Shown here one piece after another: positions 1,759-19,599 of a DNA stretch of 21,317 nucleotides. A program made the translations under genes and the position numbers. Position 1 is the first letter of the stretch. Every line of letters begins with the position of its first letter. The notes beneath the pieces were generated by a model. The model was not told where the DNA came from and ran no database searches. It worked only from the letters and a program-made list of their open reading frames with translations. The DNA comes from a virus, in the IMG/VR virus record IMGVR_UViG_3300035070_003043, positions 1 through 21,317 of that record, one strand, 5' to 3'.

Positions 1759-1765
1759 ATATCTC

Positions 1766-1810
1766 CAAAATAAAAAAGCCCGCAACAACTGATTGACAGT
1801 CATCGCGGGC
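1766..1810 (-). terminator. Intrinsic terminator inside the late operon
   Basis: Read on the minus strand, a 14-bp stem (1797-1810 with 1778-1791, three G-U pairs) has the 5-base loop at 1792-1796 and is followed by a T-rich run at about 1769-1777. It lies 26 bases past the stop of the gene at 1836-1997 and directly before the ribosome site of the gene at 1447-1758, leaving no room for a separate promoter. Portal-side genes must therefore be reached by read-through. Confidence 0.85.
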
Positions 1811-1835
1811 GTCGATGTTCTCGATTATCCCTAAA

Positions 1836-1997
1836 TTATTTTGCTTCTACTGCTTCTTGCGGAACTTTGATGCTCTCAAATTTATTGATGTTGCTGATTC
1901 CGCCTTTAAAGAAATTTATCTCAATCTTTCCGGTGTAACCGTCATTAACGAGCCGCGTTAAAACATCCAGTATCCACACAAGAGCTGATTTAGACAT
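1836..1997 (-). CDS. DUF2292-like small protein
   Basis: This 53-aa frame (MSKSALVWILDVL...) is too short for many gene callers but is bracketed by real genes: its ATG follows the upstream TAA by one base. The layout is an N-terminal helix, then 'GYTGKIEINFFKGGI', then 'KFESIKVPQE'. This is the pattern of DUF2292-type proteins (helix, G-x-I-x-I-x-F beta hairpin, ending in 'x-x-S-I-K'). Such proteins are frequent in phages near terminase genes and have no known function. The assignment rests on pattern memory only. Confidence 0.7.
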   Translation of the reverse strand: MSKSALVWILDVLTRLVNDGYTGKIEINFFKGGISNINKFESIKVPQEAVEAK

Positions 1998-1998
1998 A

Positions 1999-2187
1999 TT
2001 ATTGCTTTGGTTGTGGAGGCCGAATTACTGGCTCAAGTTTATTTGCAACACGATAATCAATGACAGACAAATCAAAAATACGGTCGGTTGAGACAAGATG
2101 GTTGCCGTCTAAAATATATAAATCCTCGGTGTTGGGTGTTGCGATTTGAAATATCTTTATTCCGATTCTCCGTCGAGGTTGGCTCAT
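1999..2187 (-). CDS. Small hypothetical protein downstream of terminase
   Basis: This is a 62-aa protein (MSQPRRRIGIKIF...). The start at 2187 was chosen because it overlaps the terminase stop as ATGA and has GAGGA 5-6 bases upstream; the longer frame to 2211 would run inside the terminase gene. It has a basic N-terminus, then strands 'LYILDGNHLV' and 'IFDLSVIDYRV', and a Pro-rich tail. It resembles small beta-rich phage proteins of unknown function. Coupling to the terminase suggests co-translation in the packaging module. Confidence 0.75.
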   Translation of the reverse strand: MSQPRRRIGIKIFQIATPNTEDLYILDGNHLVSTDRIFDLSVIDYRVANKLEPVIRPPQPKQ

Positions 2188-3749
2188 TTTTTCCTCATCA
2201 ATTCTTTCCATGAGTTTGTGCCCGGAACAACAGATAATTCGCTCAGGGGATTAAAATGTTCCTGAGTCGTTTTACGATTTAAGTCTAAAGGATTATATTC
2301 TTGTTGTCCATTTTTTAATTTAGAATAAAATTTTTGTGTTTTACTTAGGACGGGCGCGGCAAATGTCAATGCTAAAGCGTCCGCCCTATTCGGTGATGCG
2401 ATGCCGCGCTTCTTCATGTCGTCCTTTGATTCCAAAAAAACTTTCCCTGAATTTGAGCCAGTGGCTACAACATAAGCCTCTGGGCCAATAAGCTCATCAC
2501 AAATAACCGGGTCATCTTCAATAACGCCGCCGCCTGCAAGCCAGTCTTTCATTAACTTCCACATCTCAGCACGCTTGTTCAAATATCCTAAATCATTTGA
2601 GGCCGAACCAAACGAGACCAACTGCCACTTGCGGCCCATTTGCTTTCCAGCAGAGAATATCCCGGTTCCGTATCCCAAATCAATAAAGACCGCGTCCGCG
2701 CCATATTCTTCTTCAAAGCGTGCAACGTGCCCAGCAATAATAAAATCGTCCTTAATGCCGCGATAGGTAAAAAGTTTCTTGCTCATCAAGCCCTGACGCA
2801 AATAAATGACACCCTCATCGTCCCCTGACCACTGTGGGTCAACGCCGATAATGACCGGAGCAAAGCCGTATTGCTCAATTCTTAAGTGCTTGCCTCGCGC
2901 CGCCTGAACAATATCGGAGCCGATAAACTGCCTGTCGCCGGATGACGGGAAGTCGCCGCGCACACGGATTTTGACAAAGTCCGAGTCTTCGCCATAGTCG
3001 TTAATCCACTGGTCAATTTGTTTCTTATTTGTGAGAGTGACGTGGCGGGAGTCAACACGGTGGTTTTTCCATCTATGACGATACTTTGAAAAGCAGTCTT
3101 TAAAGCGTCCAGTGTTGCGCGTTGGGTTCCCGAACACCGCCCAGATGATTTCCGTGTTTTCGTCGGTCAACGCACCTTCTGTGACTTCCCAGATTTTGTC
3201 AGGAATCGCAGAGGACTCGTCGAATATGACCACAATGCGCTTGCCTTTATTGTGGAGCCCGGCAAAACTTTCGGTTTTGTGCTCGCTCCACGGGATTGCG
3301 TCGAACCGCCACGTCTTTTCATGGGCTGGATTGATTGAATAGATTGATGTTGCGGTTAGGGTGAACCAATGCTTTGCAACGAAAAGGTTATACCATTTGG
3401 TGAGCTCCGGCCATGTCTTTGTCTTTAGCTGGGTGTCCGTGTTGGCCGTAACGACCCCGCGAGTGTCTTCAAAGGTTGAAAGCGACCAAAGGATTAACCA
3501 CGCAACAAAAGCGCTCTTCCCGATACCGTGGCCGCTTGCTGTGGCAATCTTAATTGCCTCGTCCATTGATATGAGCCCGCGCTCAATATCAAGCAAGAGC
3601 CTTGTCTGCCAATCCTCTGGGCCTTTGTAGTCAGCAAGGTCGCCAACACCCCACTCAAAAGAATAAAGAAGCCAGTCCAAAGGCTTCTTAGAGAATCCTG
3701 ATATGTCTTGAGCAAGGACAAGCTCCTGCTCTTCGGCGGCTTTATCCAT
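2184..3749 (-). CDS. terL: Terminase large subunit
   Basis: This 521-aa protein is the ATP-driven DNA packaging motor and nuclease. The ATPase half shows Walker A 'GHGIGKS' (residues 73-79) and Walker B 'VVIFDE' (173-178), with 'VFGNPTRNTGRF' as the following coupling region. The nuclease half has the RNase H-like acidic residues in 'IIGVDPQWSG' (D304), 'AVFIDLGYGTG' (D357) and 'SPNRADALAL' (D457). Length is normal for the Terminase_6 type. The ATG at 3749 is preferred over the TTG at 3752: it overlaps the upstream TGA as TGATG, so translation is coupled to the candidate small subunit. All key residues are present. Confidence 0.96.
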   Translation of the reverse strand: MDKAAEEQELVLAQDISGFSKKPLDWLLYSFEWGVGDLADYKGPEDWQTRLLLDIERGLISMDEAIKIATASGHGIGKSAFVAWLILWSLSTFEDTRGVVTANTDTQLKTKTWPELTKWYNLFVAKHWFTLTATSIYSINPAHEKTWRFDAIPWSEHKTESFAGLHNKGKRIVVIFDESSAIPDKIWEVTEGALTDENTEIIWAVFGNPTRNTGRFKDCFSKYRHRWKNHRVDSRHVTLTNKKQIDQWINDYGEDSDFVKIRVRGDFPSSGDRQFIGSDIVQAARGKHLRIEQYGFAPVIIGVDPQWSGDDEGVIYLRQGLMSKKLFTYRGIKDDFIIAGHVARFEEEYGADAVFIDLGYGTGIFSAGKQMGRKWQLVSFGSASNDLGYLNKRAEMWKLMKDWLAGGGVIEDDPVICDELIGPEAYVVATGSNSGKVFLESKDDMKKRGIASPNRADALALTFAAPVLSKTQKFYSKLKNGQQEYNPLDLNRKTTQEHFNPLSELSVVPGTNSWKELMRKK

Positions 3750-4021
3750 CAATTTGCAGTTTGGGTGTGAAATTGAGCCACGCGGTTTCGGCCTTCTTTA
3801 ATGCGCTCAGCCAAAGTCAGATGAATGTCGCCTTTATGCTCGACCTCTTGCGGAACGCGGCGCTTGACCAATTCCAAAGCAATGTGCACCTGAGTCTTTT
3901 GGTCAAACTTATCAAAGTGCTTTTCCAAGAAGTCGAAGCACTTATCCAAAAGATGAAGCATCTTGCGCTCGTCATCAGCGGTCTTGCGTCCAACCCGTCC
4001 CCTTTGCTTTAATTCCGGCAT
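3749..4021 (-). CDS. Candidate terminase small subunit
   Basis: This 90-aa basic, helical protein lies immediately before terL and is translationally coupled to it. It has a basic start (KQRGRVGRKTADDERK), then a helical core with 'LLDKCFDFLEKHFDKFDQ' and 'IALELVKRRVPQEVEHKG', and a polar tail. Position and size suit a terminase small subunit, which recognises phage DNA for packaging, but no helix-turn-helix is evident. The same pattern occurs in uncharacterised pre-terminase proteins. A site GGTGA lies 5 bases before the ATG. The gene is certain; the role is inferred from context. Confidence 0.8.
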   Translation of the reverse strand: MPELKQRGRVGRKTADDERKMLHLLDKCFDFLEKHFDKFDQKTQVHIALELVKRRVPQEVEHKGDIHLTLAERIKEGRNRVAQFHTQTAN

Positions 4022-4062
4022 TAAATCACCTTAAATGATTGCAATAAAATAAGTTATAAAAA

Positions 4063-5574
4063 TCACTTTGCCCCCGTTGGCTTTGGCCGCTTACTTAGTT
4101 GCACTTGTGGAAAGGGCCGCTTCTCAACAACTCCTTCAAGGCAATCAAAGATGTCTTTAAGATTCTTCCTCTGCTCTGCGGGCATCTTTGAAGTCCCTGC
4201 TCTAATCTGACTCATTTCTTCGTCAATGTCAATCCCGAAAATGCCGCGTTGAAATGATTTGATGACATTGTCTTGTCCGATGTAGCGATTCATCCGCGCC
4301 TTACGCAGATAAAACAGGCATGACTCTTTGTCACCCATGATGTGCATACAATTTGACGCAATCAAGTTGAGTTTGAAATCGTCCGGGTTGACCTTAAGCC
4401 CTTCCTTCGCGGTCTCCCACGCGGCAAGAGGGTCGCCCACCTGAATCATGTTCGTTGCCTTAAACTCCCTAATCTTAGGGCCGCCACGGTCAAAAAACTC
4501 ATGGTAAGCCCAGAAAGCAATGATGTCCTTATACATGAGCTGTGTGACTTGCAAATTCGCCCAATAATATCCGGCCAGAAGCGCAAGCACAGGCAGTCCA
4601 TAAGCCCCAAGATAGGTCATAGCAAAATACGCCACAAAGAATGACATGAACACGCTTGGAAGCGCGATATATCGGTCTGCATAGACCTGAGTTATTGTTA
4701 AAAATCCGCTCCACTGAAGAACAGCCAGAATCGTAAATACCCAAAGCCAAAGCATCGAGCTCTTGATGAGGACTACCGCGACCGCCAATGAAGCCACAAA
4801 GCAAGTAAGGCCAAAATAAAAAGAAGCGTTAAACGAATAAGCATCTTTGTTTCCCTTCTCGGTCATGCCCCAATAAAATAAATCAGGGTAAATCATCATC
4901 GTCCGTCCGGGGAATACCATTTTTTTCATGTAAAGGCCAAAGACCTTTGTGATAGGGATGAGCTTTTTAAGCGTGAAATCGCGCATATCGGAGTTGTGCA
5001 AGACATCCATCCGCGCCTTAATCTTTCCTTTAAGGTCAGGCCAGCTCAAATAAAGAATCGGCAAGAGTGCAACGAGCGCTCCCGGCCCATAGATAATTGG
5101 CGACAAAAGCGCTGTCACCTGAAAGATTGCCGTTAGAGGATAAAGGAAAAGACCCCACGGCCCAATTAAGACCATGAGCAAAACGAGGATGATATTGATT
5201 GCATAGCGCCGACCATTGGCCCAGAGACTTACTTGATTGTTGGCCGGGTTTAATGCGCAAAGAACTGCGGCGAGAAGCGAAATCTGATTGTGCCCGAAAG
5301 CCCAATAAACCAAAACACAGATAAGAGCATAAAGGCTCGTTGTCAAAATGCGGTCATGGACATAATTGACAGTCCATTTCCCATCTTTATTTTTATATGC
5401 TAGGGTTCCGAAGCCGTAAAGACGCTTCTCAATTCTGCGCCAAATCTTCCCGGCCTCCAAATCCCCCTTCTTAATCCCTTCATGCCGCCGCATGTCATCA
5501 ACAATGATTCCAAAGTTAAACGTCCGGCAATAAACCAGAAAAACAAGCGCTACAATAAAAAGGGATTCAAGCAT
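4063..5574 (-). CDS. GT-C (TMTC/PMT-like) membrane glycosyltransferase with TPR-like tail
   Basis: This 503-aa multi-pass membrane protein has about ten hydrophobic segments and a soluble C-terminus. Four features match the TMTC/PMT-type GT-C fold: an acidic pair after the first membrane segment ('IIVDDM', D26-D27), 'NP...VSLWANGRR' (109-123, like the family's HP-x-x-E-x-V-x-W-x-x-x-R), 'KKMVFPGRTMMIYP' (about 217-230), and 'ADRYIALPS' (299-307, like E-R-Y-x-Y-L-P-S). Residues 374-427 form helical pairs resembling TPRs ('AKEGLKVNPDDFKLNL'). Such enzymes move a sugar from a lipid-phosphate donor to surface acceptors. The ATG at 5574 was chosen: GAGGAG lies 10 bases upstream, whereas the longer TTG start is itself inside that site. 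A surface-modification role in phage infection is inferred. Confidence 0.75.
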   Translation of the reverse strand: MLESLFIVALVFLVYCRTFNFGIIVDDMRRHEGIKKGDLEAGKIWRRIEKRLYGFGTLAYKNKDGKWTVNYVHDRILTTSLYALICVLVYWAFGHNQISLLAAVLCALNPANNQVSLWANGRRYAINIILVLLMVLIGPWGLFLYPLTAIFQVTALLSPIIYGPGALVALLPILYLSWPDLKGKIKARMDVLHNSDMRDFTLKKLIPITKVFGLYMKKMVFPGRTMMIYPDLFYWGMTEKGNKDAYSFNASFYFGLTCFVASLAVAVVLIKSSMLWLWVFTILAVLQWSGFLTITQVYADRYIALPSVFMSFFVAYFAMTYLGAYGLPVLALLAGYYWANLQVTQLMYKDIIAFWAYHEFFDRGGPKIREFKATNMIQVGDPLAAWETAKEGLKVNPDDFKLNLIASNCMHIMGDKESCLFYLRKARMNRYIGQDNVIKSFQRGIFGIDIDEEMSQIRAGTSKMPAEQRKNLKDIFDCLEGVVEKRPFPQVQLSKRPKPTGAK

Positions 5575-5588
5575 TAAAATAAAACTCC

Positions 5589-5744
5589 TCAATAGGGTTC
5601 ATTAAGCTGGCGCAAATCTTGTGCGCCCTCGGCCTTCTTGAAACGATTCTCCGCCTCTTCAATTCTCCCCTGAGCAAATCCGCATCCGTAACTTGCCCAC
5701 GCTATCAATGCCGTAAAAATGGTATAGAGAATTATTGTTATCAT
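5589..5744 (-). CDS. Small single-pass membrane protein
   Basis: A 51-aa frame with an N-terminal hydrophobic segment (IILYTIFTALIAWASYGCGF) and a charged helical tail (RIEEAENRFKKAEGAQ). The ATG overlaps the upstream stop as ATGA, and its TGA merges with the GAGGAG site of the glycosyltransferase gene, so all three are coupled. It could be a partner of the downstream membrane enzyme; no family is recognised. Confidence 0.7.
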   Translation of the reverse strand: MITIILYTIFTALIAWASYGCGFAQGRIEEAENRFKKAEGAQDLRQLNEPY

Positions 5745-6003: not shown

Positions 6004-6020
6004 TCAAAAAAATACTTTTC

Positions 6021-6045
6021 ACTTGCCTTGACAAGTGTCAACGCA
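6021..6045. promoter_or_regulatory. Operator: overlapping palindromes at the repressor promoter
   Basis: TTGAC-AAGT-GTCAA (6028-6041) is a perfect palindrome with a 4-base centre and overlaps a second inverted repeat, CACTTG...CAAGTG, just to its left. The 14-base stretch CAAGTGTCAACGCA (6032-6045) recurs at 6260-6273. The palindrome covers the -35 box of the HTH gene promoter, the usual arrangement for autorepression by a phage Cro/CI-like protein. Confidence 0.65.
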
Positions 6046-6056
6046 GATGCTATGCT
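6028..6056 (+). promoter_or_regulatory. Strong sigma70-like promoter, leaderless
   Basis: TTGACA (6028-6033), 17 bases, TATGCT (6051-6056) with an extended -10 TG one base upstream. Transcription should start near 6063, and the HTH gene's ATG is 6064-6066, with no ribosome site before it. The mRNA is therefore expected to be leaderless, like lambda cI made from PRM. Confidence 0.75.
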
Positions 6057-6063
6057 TCTTCCC

Positions 6064-6237
6064 ATGACTACCTCACCAAGCAGAATCAGAAATTATTTGA
6101 CACGCAAGAATATGACGCAGTTTGAATTTGCCCGCGCCATTGATTGCCACACCTCAACCGTTAATCGCTGGGTCACTGGCAAAAATAAACCAAGCAAATT
6201 ATGGTCTAAAATTATTGAAGAGCTTATCAGTAAATAA
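6064..6237 (+). CDS. Cro/CI-like HTH transcriptional regulator
   Basis: This 57-aa protein consists of little more than an XRE-type helix-turn-helix: 'IRNYLTRKNMTQFEFARAID' followed by 'HTSTVNRWVTGKNKPS' (recognition helix around residues 29-37). The size is typical of Cro-like or YdaS-like phage repressors without an oligomerisation domain. The ATG at 6064 was chosen because upstream in-frame starts (TTG 6028, ATG 6052) lie inside the -35 and -10 boxes. The divergent position opposite the packaging operon and the palindromes over its own promoter suggest that it sets the direction of transcription. Whether it is the lysogenic repressor or its antagonist cannot be told. Confidence 0.88.
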   Translation: MTTSPSRIRNYLTRKNMTQFEFARAIDCHTSTVNRWVTGKNKPSKLWSKIIEELISK

Positions 6238-6259
6238 AATTTTTTGTCATTAAAATAGG

Positions 6260-6279
6260 CAAGTGTCAACGCACTTATC
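6260..6279. promoter_or_regulatory. Second copy of operator half (CAAGTGTCAACGCA)
   Basis: Bases 6260-6273 repeat exactly 14 bases of the operator at 6032-6045 and also form AAGTG-N6-CACTT (6261-6276). The site lies 16 bases before the SD of the gene at 6296. No convincing -35/-10 pair was found here, so it may act from downstream on the same promoter or loop with the first site. Confidence 0.5.
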
Positions 6280-6910: not shown

Positions 6911-7217
6911 GTCAAATTATCCTAAAAACCCAATAACATTTGGACAAAAGATAAGAAAGTCTCGAATGGATAAAGGCCTTAAATTGTTCGATGTTTCCCA
7001 GCGATGCGAAATAACGGAAGGGTATTTATCAAGGGTTGAAAATGACAAGCAATTACCTAAGATGAGGGCAATGCTAGACATTATGCGCTGGTCTGGTTTA
7101 AAAACCAATGATTTTGATTACTTTATTTATAAATACATTGAAAAGATTTTCAGAAAAGAAGGCCTCCATATTATGTGGGCCGCGAGAGCAATTAAAAAAT
7201 TCTATAAGGAGGCGTGA
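6903..7217 (+). CDS. XRE-family HTH regulator
   Basis: This 104-aa protein has an HTH at about residues 10-65: 'FGQKIRKSRMDKGLKLFDVS', then 'EITEGYLSRVENDKQLPKM', the usual 'S-R-x-E-x-x-x-x-x-P' of the XRE fold. It continues as a helical tail to residue 104. The ATG at 6903 is placed 6 bases after GAGGA and overlaps the previous stop; longer versions would reach back through the acidic gene. It is a second regulator besides the Cro/CI-like protein, perhaps controlling the recombination or replication genes that follow. Regulatory targets are unknown. Confidence 0.85.
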   Translation: MRKSNYPKNPITFGQKIRKSRMDKGLKLFDVSQRCEITEGYLSRVENDKQLPKMRAMLDIMRWSGLKTNDFDYFIYKYIEKIFRKEGLHIMWAARAIKKFYKEA

Positions 7218-7218
7218 C

Positions 7219-8121
7219 GTGGACAATGAAATGATTGAATCGCAACCGACGGAAATCATCTTGCACCGCGAACCGGAGGCCGTGTTGGCCGAGGCCAAGA
7301 AGGCGGCACAAGCCCTGATGACCGTTGTATCCCAGAAGAAAAAACCCGTCATTATTAACAATGAGCAATATCTCGAATTTGAAGACTGGCAGACTGTCGC
7401 CAGATTCTATGGCCTAACTGTTAAGATAAACCGAACGAACTTTATTGATTTCGGCGGCGTTAAAGGCTATGAGGCCATCGCTGACGTTTTGCGCAATGAC
7501 GGCACAGTCATTTCATCCGCTGAGGCCATGTGCTTAAACGATGAGGAGAAATGGTCAACGCGGGCCAAATATGAGTGGGTCAACGGCAGAAAAGAAAAAA
7601 CCGGGGAAATCCCTGTCCCACTTTTCCAAATCCGCTCTATGGCCCAAACCCGCGCTTGCGCAAAGGCCCTGCGCAATGTCTTGGCTTGGGTTGTTGTGCT
7701 GGCCGGATTTAAGCCTACACCTGCCGAAGAAATGACAGACGGCTTAAGTCAAGGGCAATCAGCCAAGCCGGAGATTAAGCCTCCACAAGAAAAGCCTGCG
7801 GCCACAAATGAACCAAAGCCGCAAATTAAAGCTGTTGATATTGCAACCTTACTTAAGGCCAACGCTGGCGAGCGCATGAATGTTTTTGCCTATGTTCAAA
7901 AGAGCGAGCATAAACAATTCCCGAAGAAAGATAAATCGGGGATGGTTGACATTACGACTTACACCGCTTCTGATGTTGGCGGGCCCGAAGCCCAAATCAA
8001 GGTCTGGGGCGTTCAAGAACCAATGGAAGCCGGACAAGCAATCGTTTTTGAGAATGTCGTTATCGGAACTTATAAAGATAAGCCGGATTATTTGGCAGAA
8101 AGAATTATCAAAAATGCCTGA
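7219..8121 (+). CDS. Single-strand annealing-type recombination protein with OB-like tail
   Basis: This 300-aa protein starts at GTG 7219, 6 bases after AGGAGG. The core (about 45-170) has 'LEFEDWQTVARFYGLTVKI', 'GYEAIADVLRNDG' and 'IRSMAQTRACAKALRNVLAW', a layout seen in phage proteins next to exonucleases and compatible with Erf/Rad52-like annealases ('Q-T-R-A-x-x-x-A-L-R'). A Pro/Lys linker (175-205) leads to a C-terminal region of alternating strands (about 215-300: 'MNVFAYVQKSEHKQFPKK', 'QIKVWGVQEP', 'VIGTYKDKPDYLAERI') that looks like an OB fold. The following gene is a RecB-type nuclease, the standard annealase-exonuclease pairing. The annealase role is inferred; the OB fold is a guess from strand pattern. 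Confidence 0.75.
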   Translation: MDNEMIESQPTEIILHREPEAVLAEAKKAAQALMTVVSQKKKPVIINNEQYLEFEDWQTVARFYGLTVKINRTNFIDFGGVKGYEAIADVLRNDGTVISSAEAMCLNDEEKWSTRAKYEWVNGRKEKTGEIPVPLFQIRSMAQTRACAKALRNVLAWVVVLAGFKPTPAEEMTDGLSQGQSAKPEIKPPQEKPAATNEPKPQIKAVDIATLLKANAGERMNVFAYVQKSEHKQFPKKDKSGMVDITTYTASDVGGPEAQIKVWGVQEPMEAGQAIVFENVVIGTYKDKPDYLAERIIKNA

Positions 8122-8695
8122 GCAACGATTAGTCGCGGTCAGCGAGAATGGTTATGATTTAAACGGCGTGCGCTATGCCAGAGTGACGAATGTGCTTAAA
8201 TCAGTCGGCATCATTGACCCGCGCTGGTTCGACGAATATGCGGCCTTGCGCGGAACCTATGTGCACATGGCCTGTGCTATGCACGACTCAGGAACGCTTG
8301 ACCACGATAGCCTTGACCCCCAGCTTATTGGCTATGTAAATGGCTGGATGTTATTCTTAAAGGAGCATCCGCAAATTGAAATCAAGGACATTGAGAAATT
8401 CGTCTGCGATGATGAGCTTAAAGTAGCCGGGACACTTGACCGAACAGCGATGATTAAATCATCCAAAGGCATCATTGACATTAAAGCCGTGACCTCGATT
8501 GATGCGGCAGTCGAAATTCAAACAGCGGCCTATGCCCGCATGGAAGGCCAAGTTGACTGGCGCATGGCCGTCCAATTATTCCCAGACGGAACCTATCAGG
8601 CCAAGTCATTAACGAAGGCGATTGACCGGAGCATCTGGCTTTCTGCTATAAACATTTGGAATTGGAGAATATCAAGAGGTAAGGAGCGAGCATGA
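8114..8695 (+). CDS. PD-(D/E)XK exonuclease, RecB/Cas4-like
   Basis: This 193-aa nuclease has the full motif set: 'RGTYVH' (H51), 'VAGTLDR' (D109), 'GIIDIKAV' (D122-I-K124) and 'IQTAAYARM' (Q136). The order and spacing are those of RecB-family phage exonucleases. It would resect double-strand ends to give single strands for the upstream annealing protein. The start ATG 8114 lies within the last codons of that gene (8-base overlap), so the two are coupled; the longer frame back to 7880 is a shadow of the upstream gene. All catalytic residues are present. Confidence 0.88.
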   Translation: MPEQRLVAVSENGYDLNGVRYARVTNVLKSVGIIDPRWFDEYAALRGTYVHMACAMHDSGTLDHDSLDPQLIGYVNGWMLFLKEHPQIEIKDIEKFVCDDELKVAGTLDRTAMIKSSKGIIDIKAVTSIDAAVEIQTAAYARMEGQVDWRMAVQLFPDGTYQAKSLTKAIDRSIWLSAINIWNWRISRGKERA

Positions 8696-9775: not shown

Positions 9776-11098
9776 ATGAAAAATGTATTCACCGCTTTAA
9801 TTGCGCTCTTTGCATTAACATCCACAGCTTTTGCCGGACAAACAATCACAATCCCAGACCCGAAAGGAACCATATTCCGGGGCGAGCGTGGCGGGGACTA
9901 CGCCGGAGAAACAACAATATCTATTGGGAACTTCACTGGCGATGTGTTCCCGGAGACACTCATCAACGTCAGAAACTTCGCGACCTCCGTCCATGCCGGA
10001 CGAGTATACATTAAGCGCGGGAGCATCAACGGCCTGCCTCAAGACATGAATCTCGCTACCCAGTCAGACATCACCATTGAAGGCGAAAATTACGGATGGA
10101 CTGGGACAAACATTCGAGTCGTCCCAGATTTAAACGGGGATGGTTATACCGAAATTCTTGTGAGCTCCGGGAGCAATCTATATCTCATTTACGGGGCCCA
10201 GAATTTCCCACCCAGCTTTAAAATCACTGACGTTGGGACAACCATTGCTGGCAAAAGATTCATCACCAATGGCCAATTTCAAGACGCCGAGTTTGGCGAC
10301 TTCGACAAAGACGGCAATGTTGACATGCTCATTGCTGGCTCTGGCCTTCTCGCGGGAGAAGCTGGAATTATATATTTAAGCAAGCTCCCGGCGGGCGCTG
10401 TCACAATAAACGCCGCGCTGTTTGACGGCATAAAAGGCAAGAAAATACCAAACGTCGTCGGATTCATGCAACATTCCGTTGCAGTCCTTGACTTAGACAA
10501 CAATGGCCAAACTGATTATGTGTTCATAAAAGACACCCAAATTCGCGTTTATATAAATGATGTCCTTAAAAGCACAATAAACACGGCTGGAATCGCCAAT
10601 GCCGCAATGGTTTTTAACGCCGGGGACATGAACAATGACGGATTGGCTGATTTCGTCATTCACGGAAATATCTATCCCAGCGGCCCAGCAACAACCCTCA
10701 TATTTAACAGGGTGAATTGGCCTGCATCCATGACGCTTGCCATTGACGGAACAAGCGCAAGCAGATTGTCCGGGATTGGCCAATTCAACACATCTTTAGG
10801 GCACATCATCGCCCCATTCCCGCAGGGGCTTCTGATTGGTGATGACAGCTATTCCTCAGGGGCAGGCCGCGTTATTGTCCTTGACAAGAAGAATGTTTGG
10901 CCAGCAACATACACAATCACAGCCTCGGAGCAATCTGACAACACAAAAATCGTCGGAGGCGTTAGAATAGGAAAATCTGTCAGCTATTCAGAGAATCTTT
11001 ATGGCGGGATTGGGTGTCAGGCCAATGTCGCGATATTGGTTGGCGCGAACGCCCTAAATCAAATAAGCAATTCATACGTTGTGCAGTTTAAAAAGTAG
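9776..11098 (+). CDS. Secreted FG-GAP/VCBS beta-propeller protein
   Basis: This 440-aa protein has a Sec signal peptide (MKNVFTALIALFALTSTAFA, cleavage expected after residue 20). Four calcium-loop repeats of the FG-GAP/VCBS type follow: DLNGDG (118-123), DFDKDG (175-180), DLDNNG (239-244) and DMNNDG (284-289), each followed by a 'x-D-x-x-I' strand. Further Gly-rich blades reach to the end, suggesting a seven-blade integrin-alpha-like propeller. Such proteins are exported and often mediate adhesion or ligand binding. It ends in TAG. AGGA lies about 9 bases before the ATG. This is cargo unrelated to phage assembly or replication; a role in host-surface conversion or phage exclusion is inference. 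Confidence 0.9.
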   Translation: MKNVFTALIALFALTSTAFAGQTITIPDPKGTIFRGERGGDYAGETTISIGNFTGDVFPETLINVRNFATSVHAGRVYIKRGSINGLPQDMNLATQSDITIEGENYGWTGTNIRVVPDLNGDGYTEILVSSGSNLYLIYGAQNFPPSFKITDVGTTIAGKRFITNGQFQDAEFGDFDKDGNVDMLIAGSGLLAGEAGIIYLSKLPAGAVTINAALFDGIKGKKIPNVVGFMQHSVAVLDLDNNGQTDYVFIKDTQIRVYINDVLKSTINTAGIANAAMVFNAGDMNNDGLADFVIHGNIYPSGPATTLIFNRVNWPASMTLAIDGTSASRLSGIGQFNTSLGHIIAPFPQGLLIGDDSYSSGAGRVIVLDKKNVWPATYTITASEQSDNTKIVGGVRIGKSVSYSENLYGGIGCQANVAILVGANALNQISNSYVVQFKK

Positions 11099-11167: not shown

Positions 11168-11244
11168 CTGCTACCAACGAAAGGAGGCATCAGGCGTAGA
11201 TTAGGGGGAATTAAATTATGAAAACAAAAATAAGGAGAAATTCA

Positions 11245-11877
11245 ATGAAGAAAATACTTTTAACAATTGGACTATTATTGTCGTCCAGTATCGCATTTGC
11301 GAGCACTTCTGGGGTGTTCCCAATTCAATTGACACTCCCAGCCGCAACAACCGTTAAATTCGTTGTCTCACAGGTAACGCCGGGCTCTCCGCCCACATTT
11401 GTTGAACACGGTGGAAATTTTCTAAACTTTGATACTGCTGGTTTGGATTTCTCATCCGCGAATGGGACGTATCTTCCCAAGAAATTCTGGGCAATTGATG
11501 TGGCCCCAACAGATGCGGCTGGCGTTCCGGCTCCGGGCAATTATGGTTCAATCTCATTCACATATTCATCCAATGTCGTTCCGTCAGGACAGCCAGCCAC
11601 TGAAGGACTCAATAATCGAGCAACCTTCACGGCAGTCAAGGTTCAGGGAGCAACTGACTCGCAAACCGAAACCACTTTACAAAAAGCGGCATTAGGAGCC
11701 TCACACACCGACTTAACTCAAGCCGATGTTGACGGTGGGTTTTTGCGCGTCTATGTCGGAGGCGCAACAGGTGAAACAGAAGGGCCGAACTTTGTCACCG
11801 GCACAAAGCCTTTTACTCTCGGCGATAAACCGGGCACTTACACTGGCACTTTAACAATAACCGCTACCCTTCTTTAA
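11245..11877 (+). CDS. Secreted beta-rich protein, fimbrial/coat-like
   Basis: This 210-aa protein has a signal peptide (MKKILLTIGLLLSSSIAFA). The mature part is Thr/Gly/Val-rich with strand patterns, contains 'YGSISFTYSSNVVPSG' and 'GGFLRVYVGGATGE', and ends 'KPGTYTGTLTITATLL'. That ending resembles the last strand of fimbrial, spore-coat-U or DUF4402-like surface proteins (A-G-T-Y-x-x-x-L-T-V-T-x). The ATG at 11245 was chosen because AAGGAG precedes it by 7 bases; ATG 11218 in the same frame would add nine polar residues and is possible. Neither cysteine nor a donor strand is visible. Export is well supported; the fold is a guess. Confidence 0.85.
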   Translation: MKKILLTIGLLLSSSIAFASTSGVFPIQLTLPAATTVKFVVSQVTPGSPPTFVEHGGNFLNFDTAGLDFSSANGTYLPKKFWAIDVAPTDAAGVPAPGNYGSISFTYSSNVVPSGQPATEGLNNRATFTAVKVQGATDSQTETTLQKAALGASHTDLTQADVDGGFLRVYVGGATGETEGPNFVTGTKPFTLGDKPGTYTGTLTITATLL

Positions 11878-12009: not shown

Positions 12010-12684
12010 ATGAAAGCAATTACTATTTTATTACTAATTTCTACCATTTTAGTAATTGACGCGCACGCCGGGGTTAAAATGAACCCCAGCGGCAAATTGA
12101 CCATTGTCAATTTAGACAAAGTGTCAACACCGCCGCAATTTGATTTGACCCCACTTAGAAACAAAATCAAGAGTGGCCAGCCATTCCAAAAAGAAGTCGA
12201 AGAGCTTATCCACGCCCAACGGCTTTATGCTGAAATGGACAGGATTCTTGACGTTGTTTTTGAAGGCGACAAAATCAACATGATTAAGGGAGCCGCTGAA
12301 ATTGACGGCTTCACATTCGGCGAAATCGAAGCGCAGAAGATGGCCGACAAACTTTATAAGCAGATTGTCTCATCCTCATCTGTCGCCGACATTGACGCAA
12401 TCAATAACATTCTTTATGCAATCATCGACAAGGCCAAGATGAAACAATCATTCCGCGCTGAGGCCAAAGAACTCGAACGCATCAGGGAAATTATTCATCA
12501 AGCCAAGACACGCGCCGAAGAAGTCTTAACCAAAGAAGAATTAGCGAGACTGCTTGAGGCCGCCAAGATGACGCTGGCAAAAGCAAAAGAACAGGTTGAA
12601 GAAGTCATTGAAGCCGCGCATAAAAGACAGACTTTTGGCGCAATGGTTTTCTGTGGAAGCGAAGTCATTGAGGTTATCCAGTGA
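12010..12684 (+). CDS. Secreted helical coiled-coil protein
   Basis: This 224-aa protein has a signal peptide (about residues 1-20, 'ITILLLISTILVIDAHA'). A short strand region and a long helical part follow: 'KEVEELIHAQRLYAEMDRIL', 'AEAKELERIREIIHQAK' and 'LARLLEAAKMTLAKAKEQVE' are heptad-like. It ends with 'FCGSEVIEVIQ', carrying one Cys. It is probably periplasmic or surface-exposed. Strong AAGGAGG lies 6 bases before the ATG, within the structured leader. It is the third exported gene in a row; no family is recognised. Confidence 0.85.
   Translation: MKAITILLLISTILVIDAHAGVKMNPSGKLTIVNLDKVSTPPQFDLTPLRNKIKSGQPFQKEVEELIHAQRLYAEMDRILDVVFEGDKINMIKGAAEIDGFTFGEIEAQKMADKLYKQIVSSSSVADIDAINNILYAIIDKAKMKQSFRAEAKELERIREIIHQAKTRAEEVLTKEELARLLEAAKMTLAKAKEQVEEVIEAAHKRQTFGAMVFCGSEVIEVIQ
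12097..12110. promoter_or_regulatory. Operator-like palindrome TTGAC-N4-GTCAA inside coding region
   Basis: The palindrome has exactly the same arms and spacing as those at 6028 and 11113, here about 90 bases into the coiled-coil gene. A further AAGTGTCAAC follows at about 12119-12128, resembling the operator at 6034. It could be an internal repressor site; chance in a coding region cannot be excluded. Confidence 0.35.
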
Positions 12685-14049: not shown

Positions 14050-14542
14050 GCGTGGCATGGCAATTCTTGCCAAAAATTTTCCTGAGAAATTTATGGACTA
14101 TGACATGCTTTGGAGCTTTCTTTTTGACTTAACTGACGAAGCATTTATGAAAGCCATTGGAAATTTAATCGTGTCTAAATGCGAAATCAATAAGGCGACA
14201 AATATGATTGCCTTAATCCGTGAACTGGCAGAAGAAAAGAAAATGACAGCGGGAGAAGCATGGGCCGAAGTTTTACGTGAAATTGGCCGCGTTGGGAGCT
14301 GGGGAAAACCGAAATTTAGCGACCCATTGATTCAGAATGCAGTTGATTGTGTTGGATGGAATTCGATATGCTCATCCGAGGAAATTATGATTGAACGGGC
14401 CCACTTCTTAAAAATCTATGATTCCATTGCCGCGAGAAGGCGTATTGAGGCAATCGGGAATTCCGCGCCAGTTAAAGGCTTAATTGATATGAGTAAAGAT
14501 ATAAAAAATTTAACTTCGTCTCTTGTGATAGGGACGAAATGA
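14030..14542 (+). CDS. Candidate helicase loader-like replication protein
   Basis: This is a 170-aa all-helical protein (MQKQVFKRGMAILAKNF...). 'FPEKFMDYDMLWSFLFDLTD' and 'ATNMIALIRELAEEKKMTAG' match the N-domain pattern of phage helicase loader/inhibitor proteins of the G39P kind, and 'AGEAWAEVLREIGRVGSWG' then 'FLKIYDSIAARRRIEA' are typical of the following half. It follows the initiator with a 20-base overlap. ATG 14030 has AGGAG 7 bases upstream; ATG 14027 is 4 bases away and possible. The loader role is inferred from order and pattern. Confidence 0.75.
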   Translation: MQKQVFKRGMAILAKNFPEKFMDYDMLWSFLFDLTDEAFMKAIGNLIVSKCEINKATNMIALIRELAEEKKMTAGEAWAEVLREIGRVGSWGKPKFSDPLIQNAVDCVGWNSICSSEEIMIERAHFLKIYDSIAARRRIEAIGNSAPVKGLIDMSKDIKNLTSSLVIGTK

Positions 14543-14877
14543 AACTCAACCAATTCTTAAATTCAAAATACAAATCCAAAAGCTCAAAATGCTTATTTGG
14601 GCATTATCACCCCAGCCGCCTTGAAGCTGGGCATTGCAATAGCTTGATGGCCGATAAGCAATCGGGCCGCGTTTTGCAATATGAGGTGCATTATAAATTT
14701 GAGCTTAGGGTCAATGACGTTTTGGTCACAACGCACTATGTGGATTTTTTTATTCAAGGCAAAGATGGTCAGTGGCGGGTTGAAGAGACAAAAGGCAAAG
14801 AAATGGCCGATTGGGTCATTAAGAAAAAGCTCTTTAACGCACTGCACCCAGAAATCCCCTATATTGTAATAAAATAG
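14539..14877 (+). CDS. DUF1064-like nuclease
   Basis: This 112-aa protein has a PD-(D/E)XK core: E29 in 'HPSRLEAGH', D69 in 'THYVDFF', E83-T-K85 in 'WRVEETKG', then 'VIKKKLFNALHPEI'. This is the DUF1064 family layout, small phage nucleases thought to act on branched DNA or Holliday junctions. It starts by an ATGA overlap with the loader-like gene and ends in TAG. All motif residues are present. Resolvase activity is inferred from family. Confidence 0.85.
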   Translation: MKLNQFLNSKYKSKSSKCLFGHYHPSRLEAGHCNSLMADKQSGRVLQYEVHYKFELRVNDVLVTTHYVDFFIQGKDGQWRVEETKGKEMADWVIKKKLFNALHPEIPYIVIK

Positions 14878-14895: not shown

Positions 14896-14976
14896 GTGGA
14901 TTCGGCCAAGAAAACTCAGCCACGGTCATTTTCACTGGGGAAAGTGGACATTTTAGAAGACAATGAGAACCCATAA
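14896..14976 (+). CDS. Possible 26-aa protein or read-through tail
   Basis: GTG 14896 opens a 26-codon frame (VDSAKKTQPRSFSLGKVDIL...) that ends inside the next gene. It is in frame with the nuclease beyond its TAG, so it could be a read-through extension or a decayed gene end. A GGGGTAAG ribosome-like site lies close before the GTG. Weak evidence. Confidence 0.25.
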   Translation: MDSAKKTQPRSFSLGKVDILEDNENP

Positions 14977-15412
14977 ATTCATAGCAACGCCAGAATTGGA
15001 CAAAAATGCCGACATTCCAACGGTTCGGCTGGAATTTGAAGACTGGACTCGATACAACAATTTTATAAGCTGTTTGGAAGTCGGCAAGAAAATCGAAGTT
15101 TCCTACGGCCCGGTCACAAAGATTCGCTCAAATGAAGAAAATCGCTATTATTGGGGCGTTGTGGTTAAGGCTCTTTCAGAATTGACGGGGTTTAACCCCG
15201 ATGAAATGCACGAAATCTTGAAACATAAATTTTTAAAGAAATCAGTTTGGATAACAAACATCGAAAAGGGAACGGTCGAGGAAGTCGTTATAACGCAATC
15301 AACAACAGAATTAACAACCGTTGAGTTTGAGAATTATTTAGCAAAAATACGACAATGGGCAGGAGAAGAATTAAATTGTCCAATTCCACTCCCGAATGAG
15401 GTTACAGAATGA
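14963..15412 (+). CDS. NinB-like phage recombination-associated protein
   Basis: This 149-aa protein has 'RSNEENRYYWGVVVKALSEL', then 'FNPDEMHEILKHKFLKKSV', 'STTELTTVEFENYLAKIRQW' and 'PLPNE'. The same series is frequent in phage proteins placed between nuclease and small accessory genes and loosely resembles NinB (DNA-binding, recombination), whose signature is 'R-S-x-x-Q-N-x-x-x-W'. It probably binds single-stranded DNA. The name is tentative; the gene is secure. Confidence 0.8.
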   Translation: MRTHKFIATPELDKNADIPTVRLEFEDWTRYNNFISCLEVGKKIEVSYGPVTKIRSNEENRYYWGVVVKALSELTGFNPDEMHEILKHKFLKKSVWITNIEKGTVEEVVITQSTTELTTVEFENYLAKIRQWAGEELNCPIPLPNEVTE

Positions 15413-16111: not shown

Positions 16112-16344
16112 TCGAAGCCGCAAAGATAGTCCGCGAATTTATTGACGACAGCGATTGGGACTCAAGCGAAATGGATGTTGTCGATGCCCTTGAGGCGCTA
16201 GTCCTGCACGTCAAGATTGGCCAGAAAGATTATATTGAAGGCTATTTCGACGGGAAGGCCGGATTCTCGAAAAGATATAGGGGTGAGATTAAGCGCCTTG
16301 AGATTATGAAAGAAAATGAGGAAGGAACCAATGAAGCTAAGTGA
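16102..16344 (+). CDS. Small acidic hypothetical protein
   Basis: An 80-aa helical acidic protein (MQIVEAAKIVREFIDDSDWD...) with 'DVVDALEALVLHV', then 'YIEGYFDGKAGFSKRY' and a charged tail. GAGGGAG lies 4-5 bases before the ATG; it overlaps the previous gene by 10 bases. Not recognised. Confidence 0.75.
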   Translation: MQIVEAAKIVREFIDDSDWDSSEMDVVDALEALVLHVKIGQKDYIEGYFDGKAGFSKRYRGEIKRLEIMKENEEGTNEAK

Positions 16345-16645
16345 GATTCTTAAAGATTGGCCGGAGAAGGAAGAATTAAATTTAGTTTCTCCGAGTGATT
16401 ATGACATGTCACAACTTGCAGATGATACACATAAATATATCCGAGATTTAGAAATATTAACTGAAAAGCAAGACACCGCCCTCACGTCCTGCGACCGGGA
16501 GATTGACAGGGAGGCGTTGGCGGATTTACTCTGGACAATTACCGGAGGCCCTGCGAGTGAATTATCTCATGGAACTTGTGATGCCATAGCCCACCATATT
16601 ATCTCAAACATGCCAACGTGGTTGAAACCAACAGAAAGGAAATGA
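16331..16645 (+). CDS. Small phage protein with shared 'MPTWLK' tail
   Basis: This 104-aa protein (MKLSEILKDWPEKEELN...) starts at ATG 16331, with GGAAGGA 5 bases before it. The last 40 residues ('DREALADLLW' to 'ISNMPTWLKPTERK') align with the end of the interrupted gene at 18016-18288 ('VEALAKALW' to 'ISTMPTWLKRIEK'). This helical C-terminal module is a frequent tail of small phage proteins. The DNA of the tail is the first copy of the boundary repeat. Function unknown. Confidence 0.75.
   Translation: MKLSEILKDWPEKEELNLVSPSDYDMSQLADDTHKYIRDLEILTEKQDTALTSCDREIDREALADLLWTITGGPASELSHGTCDAIAHHIISNMPTWLKPTERK
16611..16645 (+). repeat. Boundary repeat copy 1
   Basis: TGCCAACGTGGTTGAA at 16611-16626, then a diverged purine-rich part. 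It encodes PTWLK at the end of the gene and runs into the ribosome site of the next one (ATG 16647). Confidence 0.75.
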
Positions 16646-16646
16646 A

Positions 16647-16829
16647 ATGAAAAAACATTGTTGGGTTGCTCATAAATATCGTAAAGGTTGGAGATTGGCT
16701 TTCTGCCATGGGGAAGAAAATTTACATTGGCTACCATTCTGGTTTAAAGATAAAAAAGACATTGATACCGCTTTAAAATCAGGGGTTGTATTTGTGTTTT
16801 TAAAAGAAGATGGACTATTGAGCAGGTAA
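16647..16829 (+). CDS. Small Trp-rich hypothetical protein
   Basis: A 60-aa protein (MKKHCWVAHKYRKGW...) with paired strands 'WRLAFCHGEENLHWLPFW' and a helix. AAAGGA lies 6 bases before the ATG. Not recognised; position in the cassette array. Confidence 0.7.
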   Translation: MKKHCWVAHKYRKGWRLAFCHGEENLHWLPFWFKDKKDIDTALKSGVVFVFLKEDGLLSR

Positions 16830-16831
16830 TT

Positions 16832-16993
16832 ATGAACGGACAAAAAGTATTTGTGCAGACAATCGGAAAGAATGGGAAAACTATAAGGGCAAAGAACGCC
16901 CCTAAGTTTATTAAAGAAGAAAGATTTTGCGATGAATGTGGTAAGAAGATTTCAATTTATAACAAAAGAACAAAATGCTTTGCTTGTGGTTAA
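16832..16993 (+). CDS. Small zinc-ribbon protein
   Basis: A 53-aa frame: basic N-terminal half, then 'FCDECGKKI' and 'KCFACG', a C-x-x-C/C-x-x-C zinc ribbon reaching the last residue. The ATG is 2 bases after the previous stop. The short C-terminus suggests either a minimal ribbon or loss of a following domain at the boundary repeat. Confidence 0.65.
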   Translation: MNGQKVFVQTIGKNGKTIRAKNAPKFIKEERFCDECGKKISIYNKRTKCFACG

Positions 16994-16994
16994 C

Positions 16995-17025
16995 TGCCAA
17001 CGTGGTTGAAAAGGAGTGAGAAAGC
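16995..17025 (+). repeat. Boundary repeat copy 2, with gene remnant
   Basis: TGCCAACGTGGTTGAA (16995-17010) then AAGGAGTGAGAA. Here it lies outside any gene, followed by a 5-codon remnant ATGAGATAC... (17026) and then the next real gene at 17062. This suggests a cassette lost between two copies. Confidence 0.75.
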
Positions 17026-17061
17026 ATGAGATACCATAAATAAGAAAAGAGAGGTAACAGA

Positions 17062-17427
17062 ATGACCGCCCCAGACAAGCTGAAGAAGTGCCCACATTGC
17101 AACGGAGAAGCAAGCCGTTCTGTTGGTAAAAAAGCCGATAATACAGACTATCACTACATCGAATGTTTAAATTGCGGTGCTACTGCAGAACCTCTCTATT
17201 GGAACGTGCGAAGTCGTTACGGATGGGCTTCAAATGCCGATGCTTTATCAGGTGAACCAATGGTTAATCTTGGTGATACCCGCACCCCCGAGGTGAGCGC
17301 GGAGAGGATTTTACGCGTGATTTGTAAATTTGGTAAGCCTGACTACAAAGACGGAGGAACCAATATCCACGAATCTGATTATATAAAAATAGCCGAAGCC
17401 ATAGTTAAGGAGCTATCCCATGAGTGA
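17062..17427 (+). CDS. Lar-like zinc-ribbon protein
   Basis: This 121-aa protein opens with 'LKKCPHCNGEASRS', then 'YIECLNCGATAEPLYWN', close to the Lar/restriction-alleviation zinc ribbon (C-P-x-C-x-G ... C-x-x-C-G-A). The C-terminal half is helical ('AERILRVICKFGKPDY', 'YIKIAEAIVKELSHE') like other tails in this array. Some Lar-type proteins protect phage DNA from type I restriction; here that role is only suggested. GAGAGG lies 7 bases before the ATG. Confidence 0.8.
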   Translation: MTAPDKLKKCPHCNGEASRSVGKKADNTDYHYIECLNCGATAEPLYWNVRSRYGWASNADALSGEPMVNLGDTRTPEVSAERILRVICKFGKPDYKDGGTNIHESDYIKIAEAIVKELSHE

Positions 17428-18019
17428 GTGCAAACATAAAAGCAGAGAGCCATTAGGCGATATGAATGAAATAGAATGGTGTAAAGATTGCGGAGCCTAT
17501 CGTTGGTCTGCTACTAAATTCGATAATTGGCAAGAAAATCCTTGGCAACACCCGACTCGTATGGCGAAGAATGTTCTTGGTTCCTGCACTTGCAGAAGAG
17601 ATGGCGCAAGAACTGTTACCCAAGTAATTTCCGGAGTTTTTCAATGCCCTCGCTGTGGTGGATTGATAGCCCAAAAGCCCCCTTTAGTCGAGCTGGATGA
17701 GAAGGCGGTTAAGGAATTAACCCAAACAATTATTCACGCCATTAGAGCCTTTGCTTCTTATGGTATTGGCGCAAGAATTTACGGCGATGGAGTAGATAAT
17801 GTTCATCTTCAGAAAGCAATAGCTGCGGCAAAAGAATTAGAAGAATCCCGCTTCGGCAGTCGAAGGGCGAAGATTAAATGGCCCGATAAGAAATACCATC
17901 ACACTACAGCAAATAACGCAATGTATGAATCATCGGAAGATAAAGAGTGGAACGATGCAATAGATGCCTGTATCGCCGCCTATGCAGGTGATTATTTGGA
18001 AATCGAGGTGATTAAATGA
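17420..18019 (+). CDS. Two-part zinc-ribbon phage protein
   Basis: This 199-aa protein begins 'MSECKHKSREPL' and 'IEWCKDCGAYRW', which also forms the start of the protein at 19021 (paralogue). A second ribbon follows ('SCTCRRDGA', 'FQCPRCGGL'), then a helical region and a typical phage accessory tail 'EWNDAIDACIAAYAGDY'. It is coupled to the Lar-like gene by overlap. The zinc sites are visible; the function is unknown. Confidence 0.8.
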   Translation: MSECKHKSREPLGDMNEIEWCKDCGAYRWSATKFDNWQENPWQHPTRMAKNVLGSCTCRRDGARTVTQVISGVFQCPRCGGLIAQKPPLVELDEKAVKELTQTIIHAIRAFASYGIGARIYGDGVDNVHLQKAIAAAKELEESRFGSRRAKIKWPDKKYHHTTANNAMYESSEDKEWNDAIDACIAAYAGDYLEIEVIK

Positions 18020-18288
18020 AACCAACCGACGCACGCAACGCCAAAGAGTTTCTTCCGGGGAAGGTAAAAAATAAGAGTGTATTTCCGTGGCAATAGGGTT
18101 GGGATGTCGGGTATGCGGAAGCCATCGACGCCTATAACAACGTGCTGATCGAGGGGGATGTGGAGGCATTGGCGAAGGCGTTATGGGATTTTGTATCTGA
18201 GTATCACGAAACAGATAAGCGATTACCACAGCTGGCAGACGAGTTCATCTCCACCATGCCAACGTGGTTGAAGAGGATTGAGAAATGA
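18016..18288 (+). pseudogene. Accessory gene interrupted by in-frame amber codon
   Basis: ATG 18016 opens a 91-codon frame with a TAG at 18094-18096 (codon 27), right inside '...VFPWQ-stop-GWDVGYAEAIDAY', a motif normally continuous in phage tails of this type. The downstream part is clean to its TGA and has the 'MPTWLKRIEK' tail. TAG ends at least three intact genes in this window (11098, 14877, 16111), so it is a genuine stop here. A recent nonsense mutation or suppression-dependent product is most likely. Confidence 0.7.
18257..18288 (+). repeat. Boundary repeat copy 3
   Basis: TGCCAACGTGGTTGAA (18257-18272), then GAGGATTGAGAAATGA. It encodes PTWLK and ends on the ATGA joining the next gene. 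Confidence 0.75.
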
Positions 18289-18437
18289 TACGAGGAGTTT
18301 ACATACTTACTAATTTAAAGCCTGTAGAGGTTTGGGTTGACCTTACTTGCGAAGATGAAATAGGCAACCAGATAGACGCTGAGGATATGGGGCTAACGGA
18401 TTTTAATAAATTATGCCAACGTGGTTGCGGAAAGTGA
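18285..18437 (+). CDS. Small hypothetical protein ending in boundary repeat
   Basis: A 50-aa frame (MIRGVYILTNLKPVEVWVDL...) starting by ATGA overlap. Its last residues 'LCQRGCGK' come from boundary copy 4 read in another frame than PTWLK. An unrelated protein thus ends in the same DNA, which points to junction recombination. Unknown function. Confidence 0.6.
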   Translation: MIRGVYILTNLKPVEVWVDLTCEDEIGNQIDAEDMGLTDFNKLCQRGCGK

Positions 18438-18448
18438 GTGAGAAATGA
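18414..18448 (+). repeat. Boundary repeat copy 4
   Basis: TGCCAACGTGGTTG followed by CGGAAAGTGAGTGAGAAATGA. It contains the stop of the upstream gene and the ribosome site and ATG of the pentapeptide gene; 28 bases are identical to copy 5. Confidence 0.8.
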
Positions 18449-19017
18449 AAATACAAATTAAGAATCGTTTTAACTTATCCGTAATTTTTGAATGTGAAGC
18501 TGACTCTATAAAGTTAGCCGTTGAGTTGGCTATTAAACAAAGGGCTGACCTGTCTAAGGCTAACCTGTCTGAGGTTGACCTGTCTAGGGCTAACCTGTCT
18601 AGGGCTGACCTGTCTAGGGCTGAACTGTCTGGGGCTAACCTGTATGAGGCTAACCTGTCTGGGGCTATCCTGTATGGGGCTAACCTGTATGAGGCTAACC
18701 TGTCTAGGGCTGACCTGTCTAGGGCTGAACTGTCTGAGGCTAACCTGTCTGAGGCTAACCTGTCTGGGGCTATCCTGTATGGGGCTAACCTGTATGGAGA
18801 AAAGATTGACAAAATACCAATACAAATATCTGGGCTTATCTGGTGGATAAACATTACAAAGAAGCATATTCAAATCGGATGTAAAACACACGAAGCTGAA
18901 AAATGGTTTAATTTTACCGACGATGAAATATCAGAAATGCACGAAGACGCATTAACATTCTGGAAAGTAAACAAAGAATTTATTCGGCAGGCGTGGGAAC
19001 ATCATTGCAAGGAGTGA
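18445..19017 (+). CDS. Pentapeptide-repeat protein
   Basis: This 190-aa protein has 17 consecutive A-(D/N/E)-L-x-x repeats (residues 34-118), predicted to form a right-handed quadrilateral beta-helix. A short N-terminal domain precedes them and a C-terminal segment follows ('ISGLIWWINITKKHIQIGC', 'FRQAWEHHCKE'-like end). Some proteins of this family mimic DNA and block gyrase; others have unknown roles. Few acidic residues point outward here, so gyrase mimicry is not evident. It lies between boundary copies 4 and the junction at 19021. Confidence 0.92.
   Translation: MKIQIKNRFNLSVIFECEADSIKLAVELAIKQRADLSKANLSEVDLSRANLSRADLSRAELSGANLYEANLSGAILYGANLYEANLSRADLSRAELSEANLSEANLSGAILYGANLYGEKIDKIPIQISGLIWWINITKKHIQIGCKTHEAEKWFNFTDDEISEMHEDALTFWKVNKEFIRQAWEHHCKE
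18544..18798 (+). repeat. 17 x 15-bp tandem repeat with 105-bp duplication
   Basis: Consensus about GGCTAACCTGTCTGA. Block 18601-18705 is repeated at 18706-18797 with only two differences (positions 32 and 44), so the gene recently grew by seven units. The pattern leaves several frames on both strands open; those are shadows. Confidence 0.9.
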
Positions 19018-19020
19018 GAA

Positions 19021-19317
19021 GTGAGTGAAGTCAAGTGCGAGCATAAGAACTTCTTAAGAGTCATTAAAACAATTTCTTGGTGTAAGGATTGCGGGGCTTT
19101 ATCTGACGGCGACAGGGTTTGTTGGCGACTTCCAGAACTCCCCTCGGCGCGAGTAGCGTTGGATGAATTTGAAATCGCTGACCTGATAGAGTCCGAATTA
19201 AAATCTAGTGGTTACAAGCGCCCTTTAATGAACGGCATTGAGCCTGTAAATGAGTGGGTATCAGAAAGAATAGCACGGAGAATCGTTTCTAAATATGGAC
19301 GTGGTTGCGGAAAGTGA
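19021..19317 (+). CDS. Zinc-ribbon protein, paralogue of 17420 N-terminus
   Basis: This 98-aa protein starts at GTG 19021, 7 bases after AAGGAG. N-terminal 'CEHKNFLRVIKTISWCKDCG' matches the first domain of the protein at 17420. A helical tail follows ('FEIADLIESELKSSGY', 'VSERIARRIVSKYGRGCGK') whose last residues are boundary copy 5. It is a mosaic: one zinc module plus a swapped tail. Function unknown. Confidence 0.75.
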   Translation: MSEVKCEHKNFLRVIKTISWCKDCGALSDGDRVCWRLPELPSARVALDEFEIADLIESELKSSGYKRPLMNGIEPVNEWVSERIARRIVSKYGRGCGK

Positions 19318-19328
19318 GTGAGAAATGA
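19298..19328 (+). repeat. Boundary repeat copy 5
   Basis: ACGTGGTTGCGG then AAAGTGAGTGAGAAATGA, identical to copy 4 over 28 bases. It supplies RGCGK plus stop to the upstream gene and the start region of the gene at 19325. Confidence 0.8.
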
Positions 19329-19561
19329 GAGTTTTAGTTTGTGATAACTGTAAAAGGGATTTCGAGTCTTTCACTGTAGGTGGAATTCCCGAAGAAATTG
19401 GATATGGTTTTGTCGTGCCAGAAGAAAGCCAAGACCCAGAGTATTTAATGAGCGATTTTAGTTCATCATTCCTCTGCTTTACTGACAAGGAACCAGAACG
19501 GGAAAAAGGAAAACTTTACTGGTGCGTTATGTGCATCGAGAGCATTGGAACAGAGGAATGA
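19325..19561 (+). CDS. Small zinc-binding hypothetical protein
   Basis: A 78-aa protein with 'VCDNCKRDFESFTVGGIP' at the N-terminus and 'LYWCVMCIESIG' at the end: two C-x-x-C pairs about 55 residues apart, a probable zinc site joining both ends. The start lies in boundary copy 5. Not recognised. Confidence 0.7.
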   Translation: MRVLVCDNCKRDFESFTVGGIPEEIGYGFVVPEESQDPEYLMSDFSSSFLCFTDKEPEREKGKLYWCVMCIESIGTEE

Positions 19562-19599
19562 GATACGGCATTTGGTTGCGGAAAGTGAGTGAGAAGTGA
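19558..19599 (+). other. 13-codon bridging ORF, likely cassette remnant
   Basis: ATG 19558 (ATGA overlap) opens MRYGIWLRKVSEK, ending in boundary copy 6 and overlapping the GTG of the next gene. A remnant starting with the same ATGAGATAC occurs at 17026. It probably is what remains of a deleted gene, possibly still translated to couple its neighbours. Confidence 0.35.
19573..19599 (+). repeat. Boundary repeat copy 6
   Basis: TGGTTGCGGAAAGTGAGTGA then GAAGTGA; one base differs from copies 4 and 5 in the start codon, giving GTG in place of ATG. Confidence 0.75.

Follow-up and report, generated by a model that had tools for sequence, protein, structure and literature searches.

A repeat at gene junctions of a phage accessory region, probably formed by the relict 3′ ends of duplicated small genes of one family

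There is still debate about how phages gain and lose small genes precisely at gene boundaries, with homology in boundary sequences on one side and illegitimate joining followed by selection on the other. The boundary sequences of lambdoid phages are defined by comparison of phages in which different modules adjoin the same boundary. In lambda, mosaic formation mediated by Red is supported by Orf (PMC3945230). Another short repeat found at gene junctions is the Start-Associated Sequence (SAS, with ESAS) of Cluster K mycobacteriophages, where the SAS is a 13-bp sequence, GGGATAGGAGCCC, that is conserved across phages and lies in one orientation within 3–7 bp upstream of start codons, mostly those of genes behind intergenic gaps of >50 bp (PMC3203893).

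The window analysed in this study is a 21.3-kb IMG/VR virus record, in the right part of which small plus-strand genes follow one another. Like the lambdoid boundary sequences, the repeat found there is a short stretch of conserved DNA where unrelated small genes meet, in six copies and a short seventh, and recombination functions are encoded by the phage. Unlike them, it is repeated internally within one genome, and its copies derive from the end of a gene. SAS/ESAS likewise occur in one orientation directly in front of several start codons of the non-structural region (PMC3203893), but the present repeat overlaps coding ends, is unrelated in sequence and is known from one contig. The SAS consensus showed no match to the repeat beyond chance. 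All copies have one orientation, but their 3′ edges lie 0–4 nt before a start codon or overlap it, and instead of following a gap of >50 bp they overlap the end of the upstream ORF, except for copy 2. Since the consensus is absent and the location differs, the repeat is not an SAS.

The terminase of this phage is epsilon15-like (phrog_2), with ∼53% identity to Enterobacteria phages. The recombination functions, all on the plus strand, comprise a homologue of phage exonuclease (ORF 7880–8695 as listed, phrog_298, E 3e-13, with the match covering residues 119–224), a Holliday junction resolvase homologue (14539–14877, phrog_190, E 2e-12) and a homologue of the recombination mediator NinB/Orf (14963–15412, phrog_72, E 1.5e-16). 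A family search identified no annealing recombinase; ORF 7108–8121 matched an unknown family only.

Exact scans and self-comparison agree with the earlier note in placing six copies of the repeat, far above chance, within 16.6–19.6 kb, all on one strand and within 3 kb. The ∼30-base composite that was described there is borne out in its halves, each of which occurs exactly at several sites, but as an entire sequence it is present at 18414 only. The first half, TGCCAACGTGGTTG, is exact at 16611, 16995, 18257 and 18414, all inside the array, and with up to 3 mismatches it has 5 matches against a chance mean of 1.5; the second, CGGAAAGTGAGTGAGAA, is exact at 18428, 19308 and 19579, against a mean of 0.03 expected from shuffled sequence. 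Self-comparison separates two variants with TGGTTG in common, an AAA/AAG type at 16611, 16995 and 18257, and a CGG type at 18414, 19299 and 19573. A scan with GAGTGAGAANTGA, allowing at most one mismatch, gave 5 matches, every one at a repeat-bearing junction (chance mean 0.08). A profile of the six copies had significant matches in the window at exactly those six (E 1.7e-9 to 8e-5), although, as it was built from them, this serves as a check of specificity only. The seventh, shorter copy, ATTGCAAGGAGTGAGAAGTGA (19004–19024, plus strand), holds GAGTGAGAAGTGA and lies at the junction where a pentapeptide-repeat gene ends and ORF 19021 starts.

The frame of ORF 16316 is open to a TGA in each of the six copies and gives them one C-terminus, of the form (M)PTWL[K/R]...EK-stop, with core-to-stop lengths that differ by multiples of 3 nt; the seventh is too degraded to judge. 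Copies 1 and 3 end longer ORFs in frame: copy 1 (16610–16645), reading MPTWLKPTERK, is the true 3′ end of ORF 16316–16645, and copy 3 (18256–18288), reading MPTWLKRIEK and overlapping the ATG at 18285, is that of ORF 18016–18288. The remaining copies have ragged 5′ edges, starting at different points inside the tail, and a common 3′ edge. Copy 2 (16994–17029, LPTWLKRSEKA) follows directly after the stop of ORF 16832–16993. Copy 4 (18413–18448, MPTWLRKVSEK) overlaps the ATG at 18445 and copy 5 (19296–19328, (W)TWLRKVSEK) the ATG at 19325, both out of frame at the ends of other genes, ORF 18285–18437 and ORF 19021–19317, respectively. Copy 6 (19570–19599, WLRKVSEK), which overlaps the GTG at 19596, lies in the family frame within a stub ORF. 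Copies 2, 4 and 5 are each preceded in this frame, at a distance of 0–2 codons, by a stop codon, as would be expected of relicts.

The peptides PTWLK, QRGCGK and RGCGK, quoted by the earlier note as readings of the repeat, are correct as written, QRGCGK belonging to the ORF that ends in copy 4 and RGCGK to that ending in copy 5. The idea of a neutral linker read in arbitrary frames, however, is not supported in view of the single frame and C-terminus of all six copies. Given the ragged match starts and the in-frame upstream stops, QRGCGK and RGCGK are best taken as the ends of unrelated genes that run out of frame into a relict tail. The two stubs reported to start with ATGAGATAC were located at 17026 and 19558: ATGAGATACCATAAATAA (MRYHK, 17026–17043, plus strand) comprises 5 codons behind copy 2, while MRYGIWLRKVSEK (19558–19599, plus strand) joins the start in frame to the tail WLRKVSEK-stop and so holds copy 6. 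What survives of the cassette-shuffling interpretation is a repeat at the DNA level, present only where small accessory genes adjoin, together with stubs left by deletion and the recombination functions of the phage.

The two genes that end in the repeat, here called A (16316–16645, plus strand, 109 aa, intact) and B (18016–18288, plus strand), encode proteins that are paralogous over their last 47 residues, with 38% identity (E 7e-8 in a single comparison). Gene B is interrupted by a TAG at 18094–18096 but apart from this would encode a single protein behind a strong Shine-Dalgarno (SD) sequence, and is probably a pseudogene; recoding of TAG was rejected as an account of it, as TAG ends three other ORFs here. 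At the DNA level, A and B match at 92% between 16601–16626 and 18247–18272, beginning ∼10 nt earlier than the match among the relict copies, and a 17-nt tail core (16610–16626 and 18256–18272) is identical, against ∼42% identity in the bodies. Exchange at the tail, or a constraint on the DNA, could produce such a step in identity as well, the synonymous-site counts for this pair being too small to decide.

Taken together, the repeat probably represents the relict 3′ ends of a small duplicated accessory-gene family, the bodies of which have been deleted or replaced, each copy comprising final codons, a stop and, overlapping these, the ribosome site of the gene that follows. Within the array, an ancestral family would have been duplicated, with gene A and the TAG-broken gene B as its survivors, and later deletion or replacement would have removed the gene bodies upstream of other tails. 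Tails of varying 5′ extent would then have been left behind, fused in or out of frame to unrelated genes or to start-codon stubs. They may have been kept because each carries the stop and the SD and start context of the downstream gene, which could also account for the constant 3′ edge. Recombination between tails may possibly have taken place at a later stage. This reading draws on what is seen directly in the DNA, namely the common frame, the two true gene ends, the ragged 5′ and common 3′ edges, the nonsense mutation and the stubs. Paralogues that were duplicated and then decayed would suffice to explain copies with a 3′ end from one family, a common frame, ragged 5′ edges and lengths stepped by 3 nt, and no dedicated shuffling sequence would be needed. 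Against it stand the identity of the 17-nt core between paralogues with such dissimilar bodies, the knowledge of the family from two genes on one contig only, and the several independent deletion or replacement events that the copies behind unrelated genes need.

A similar arrangement was found in a relative of this phage identified by its terminase (L036), where a tandem array of alanine-rich small genes (1638–5614, minus strand) carries a tail, KWQADRIR(EIVENPWG[T/K]K), at eight junctions in a row, overlapping the start of the following gene each time. Seven of the eight tails close intact tandem paralogues, which are conserved at their ends and vary in their alanine-rich middles; the eighth is a relict, with a premature stop and an unrelated N-terminus. 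The two arrays thus resemble each other in having one 3′ tail at junction after junction, overlapping the start that follows, and in the occurrence of a relict tail behind unrelated sequence. The array of L036–L038, unlike the one studied here, consists mostly of intact recent paralogues with long shared bodies, and its sequence is unrelated to the repeat. By analogy, it counts in favor of relict tails, the same geometry having arisen there from an obvious tandem gene array with one relict included. In a screen of contigs for 16-mers and 18-mers present at least 3 times at ≥100 nt, which would miss diverged repeats, L028 and L035 alone had repeats besides L036–L038, at short regular periods.

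The observations can also be read as cassette exchange driven by homology, with phage recombination enzymes swapping small genes at the tails as short homologies, in the manner of lambdoid boundary sequences. A crossover in the tail keeps the spacing of stop, ribosome site and start, so that any gene inserted in this way would be expressed. The CGG-type copies, near-identical over 27–30 nt between unrelated flanks, agree with such exchange, as does the conservation of the tail core but not of the paralogue bodies, and exonuclease, Orf/NinB and Holliday junction resolvase homologues are encoded, Orf being the function that assists Red in lambda (PMC3945230). We nevertheless regard exchange as a plausible but less likely origin of the repeat, as some copies share 12–17 nt only, the family search yielded no annealing recombinase, and no relative in the searched collections offers a second genome with a different cassette in the same slot. 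A further reading, in which a gene tail has turned into a reusable joint that provides an ending, a ribosome site and homology for crossover, so that new genes could be dropped in upstream without disturbing downstream expression, seems unlikely. Having the same tail at several junctions beside two related genes that bear it does make a source of short homology visible, and it cautions against taking every junction repeat for a site dedicated to recombination or regulation.

A regulatory element of DNA or RNA at gene starts, controlling downstream translation in the manner of SAS, would account for the position of every copy at or just before a start codon on one strand, a geometry that has its precedent in Cluster K (PMC3203893). 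It is, however, very unlikely. Pairing of the copies with the 16S tail (−6.6 to −7.5 kcal/mol) is average for the phage, and the one strong SD, that of copy 2 (−10.4 kcal/mol), precedes a stub of only five codons; neither observation points to a specific regulatory role. RNA structure, promoter activity and membership of an Rfam family were each rejected as explanations, the copies having no stable or conserved fold, no excess of promoters and no Rfam match. Moreover, about half of the array junctions lack the repeat, and as a ribosome site the start-distal part (TGCCAACGTGGTTG) would have no reason to be conserved, whereas coding explains it. Joining of a metagenomic contig at short repeats might be suspected, given the IMG/VR source and two copies identical over 30 nt, but such an assembly artefact can hardly be the cause: thirty-nt repeats are shorter than the usual read lengths, both the copies and their flanks differ, and misassembly would not yield tails that are related, yet differ from one another, in a single coding register.

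Searches of IMG/VR, phages and plasmids turned up no relative of the array, of its repeat or of the tail family. An exact 22-mer of the repeat had no match in IMG/VR, the degenerate pattern MPTWL..EK-stop gave none, and neither protein nor alignment scans retrieved a relative when run with the tail family, Orf, the membrane protein at 19596 and ORF 17420. When terminase relatives were searched whole, neither the repeat nor the tail family was found, the latter in a search without a positive control. A single match in GTDB genomes, in Nocardiopsis, was taken as chance (∼0.5 expected by our own estimate), its surroundings holding no further repeat and no such gene junction. Phage DNA matches were confined to the pentapeptide-repeat gene and a short stretch of ORF 15507, and the plasmid matches were pentapeptide genes. 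The pentapeptide-repeat protein itself (18445–19017), the DNA of which has a period of 15 nt, has many phage relatives with the same C-terminal domain that end near the same point. Also in the array, 17062–17427 encodes a Lar-like restriction alleviation protein, matched by Pfam PF14354 above the cut-off.

Further observations concern the rest of the window. Three ORFs (9776–11098, 11218–11877 and 12010–12684) have N-termini that by eye resemble signal peptides, one of them with FG-GAP repeats, and sit between recombination and replication genes, where they are unusual cargo. A 509-aa ORF (4063–5592, minus strand) that adjoins the terminase genes looks by eye like a membrane protein and has no Pfam or PHROG match. 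Between divergent operons, a small Cro/C1-type HTH gene (6028–6237) is flanked by an imperfect repeat in two copies (6008–6045 and 6236–6273) ending in AAGTGTCAACGCA, the first of which contains TTGAC-AAGT-GTCAA; this pair likely represents operators.
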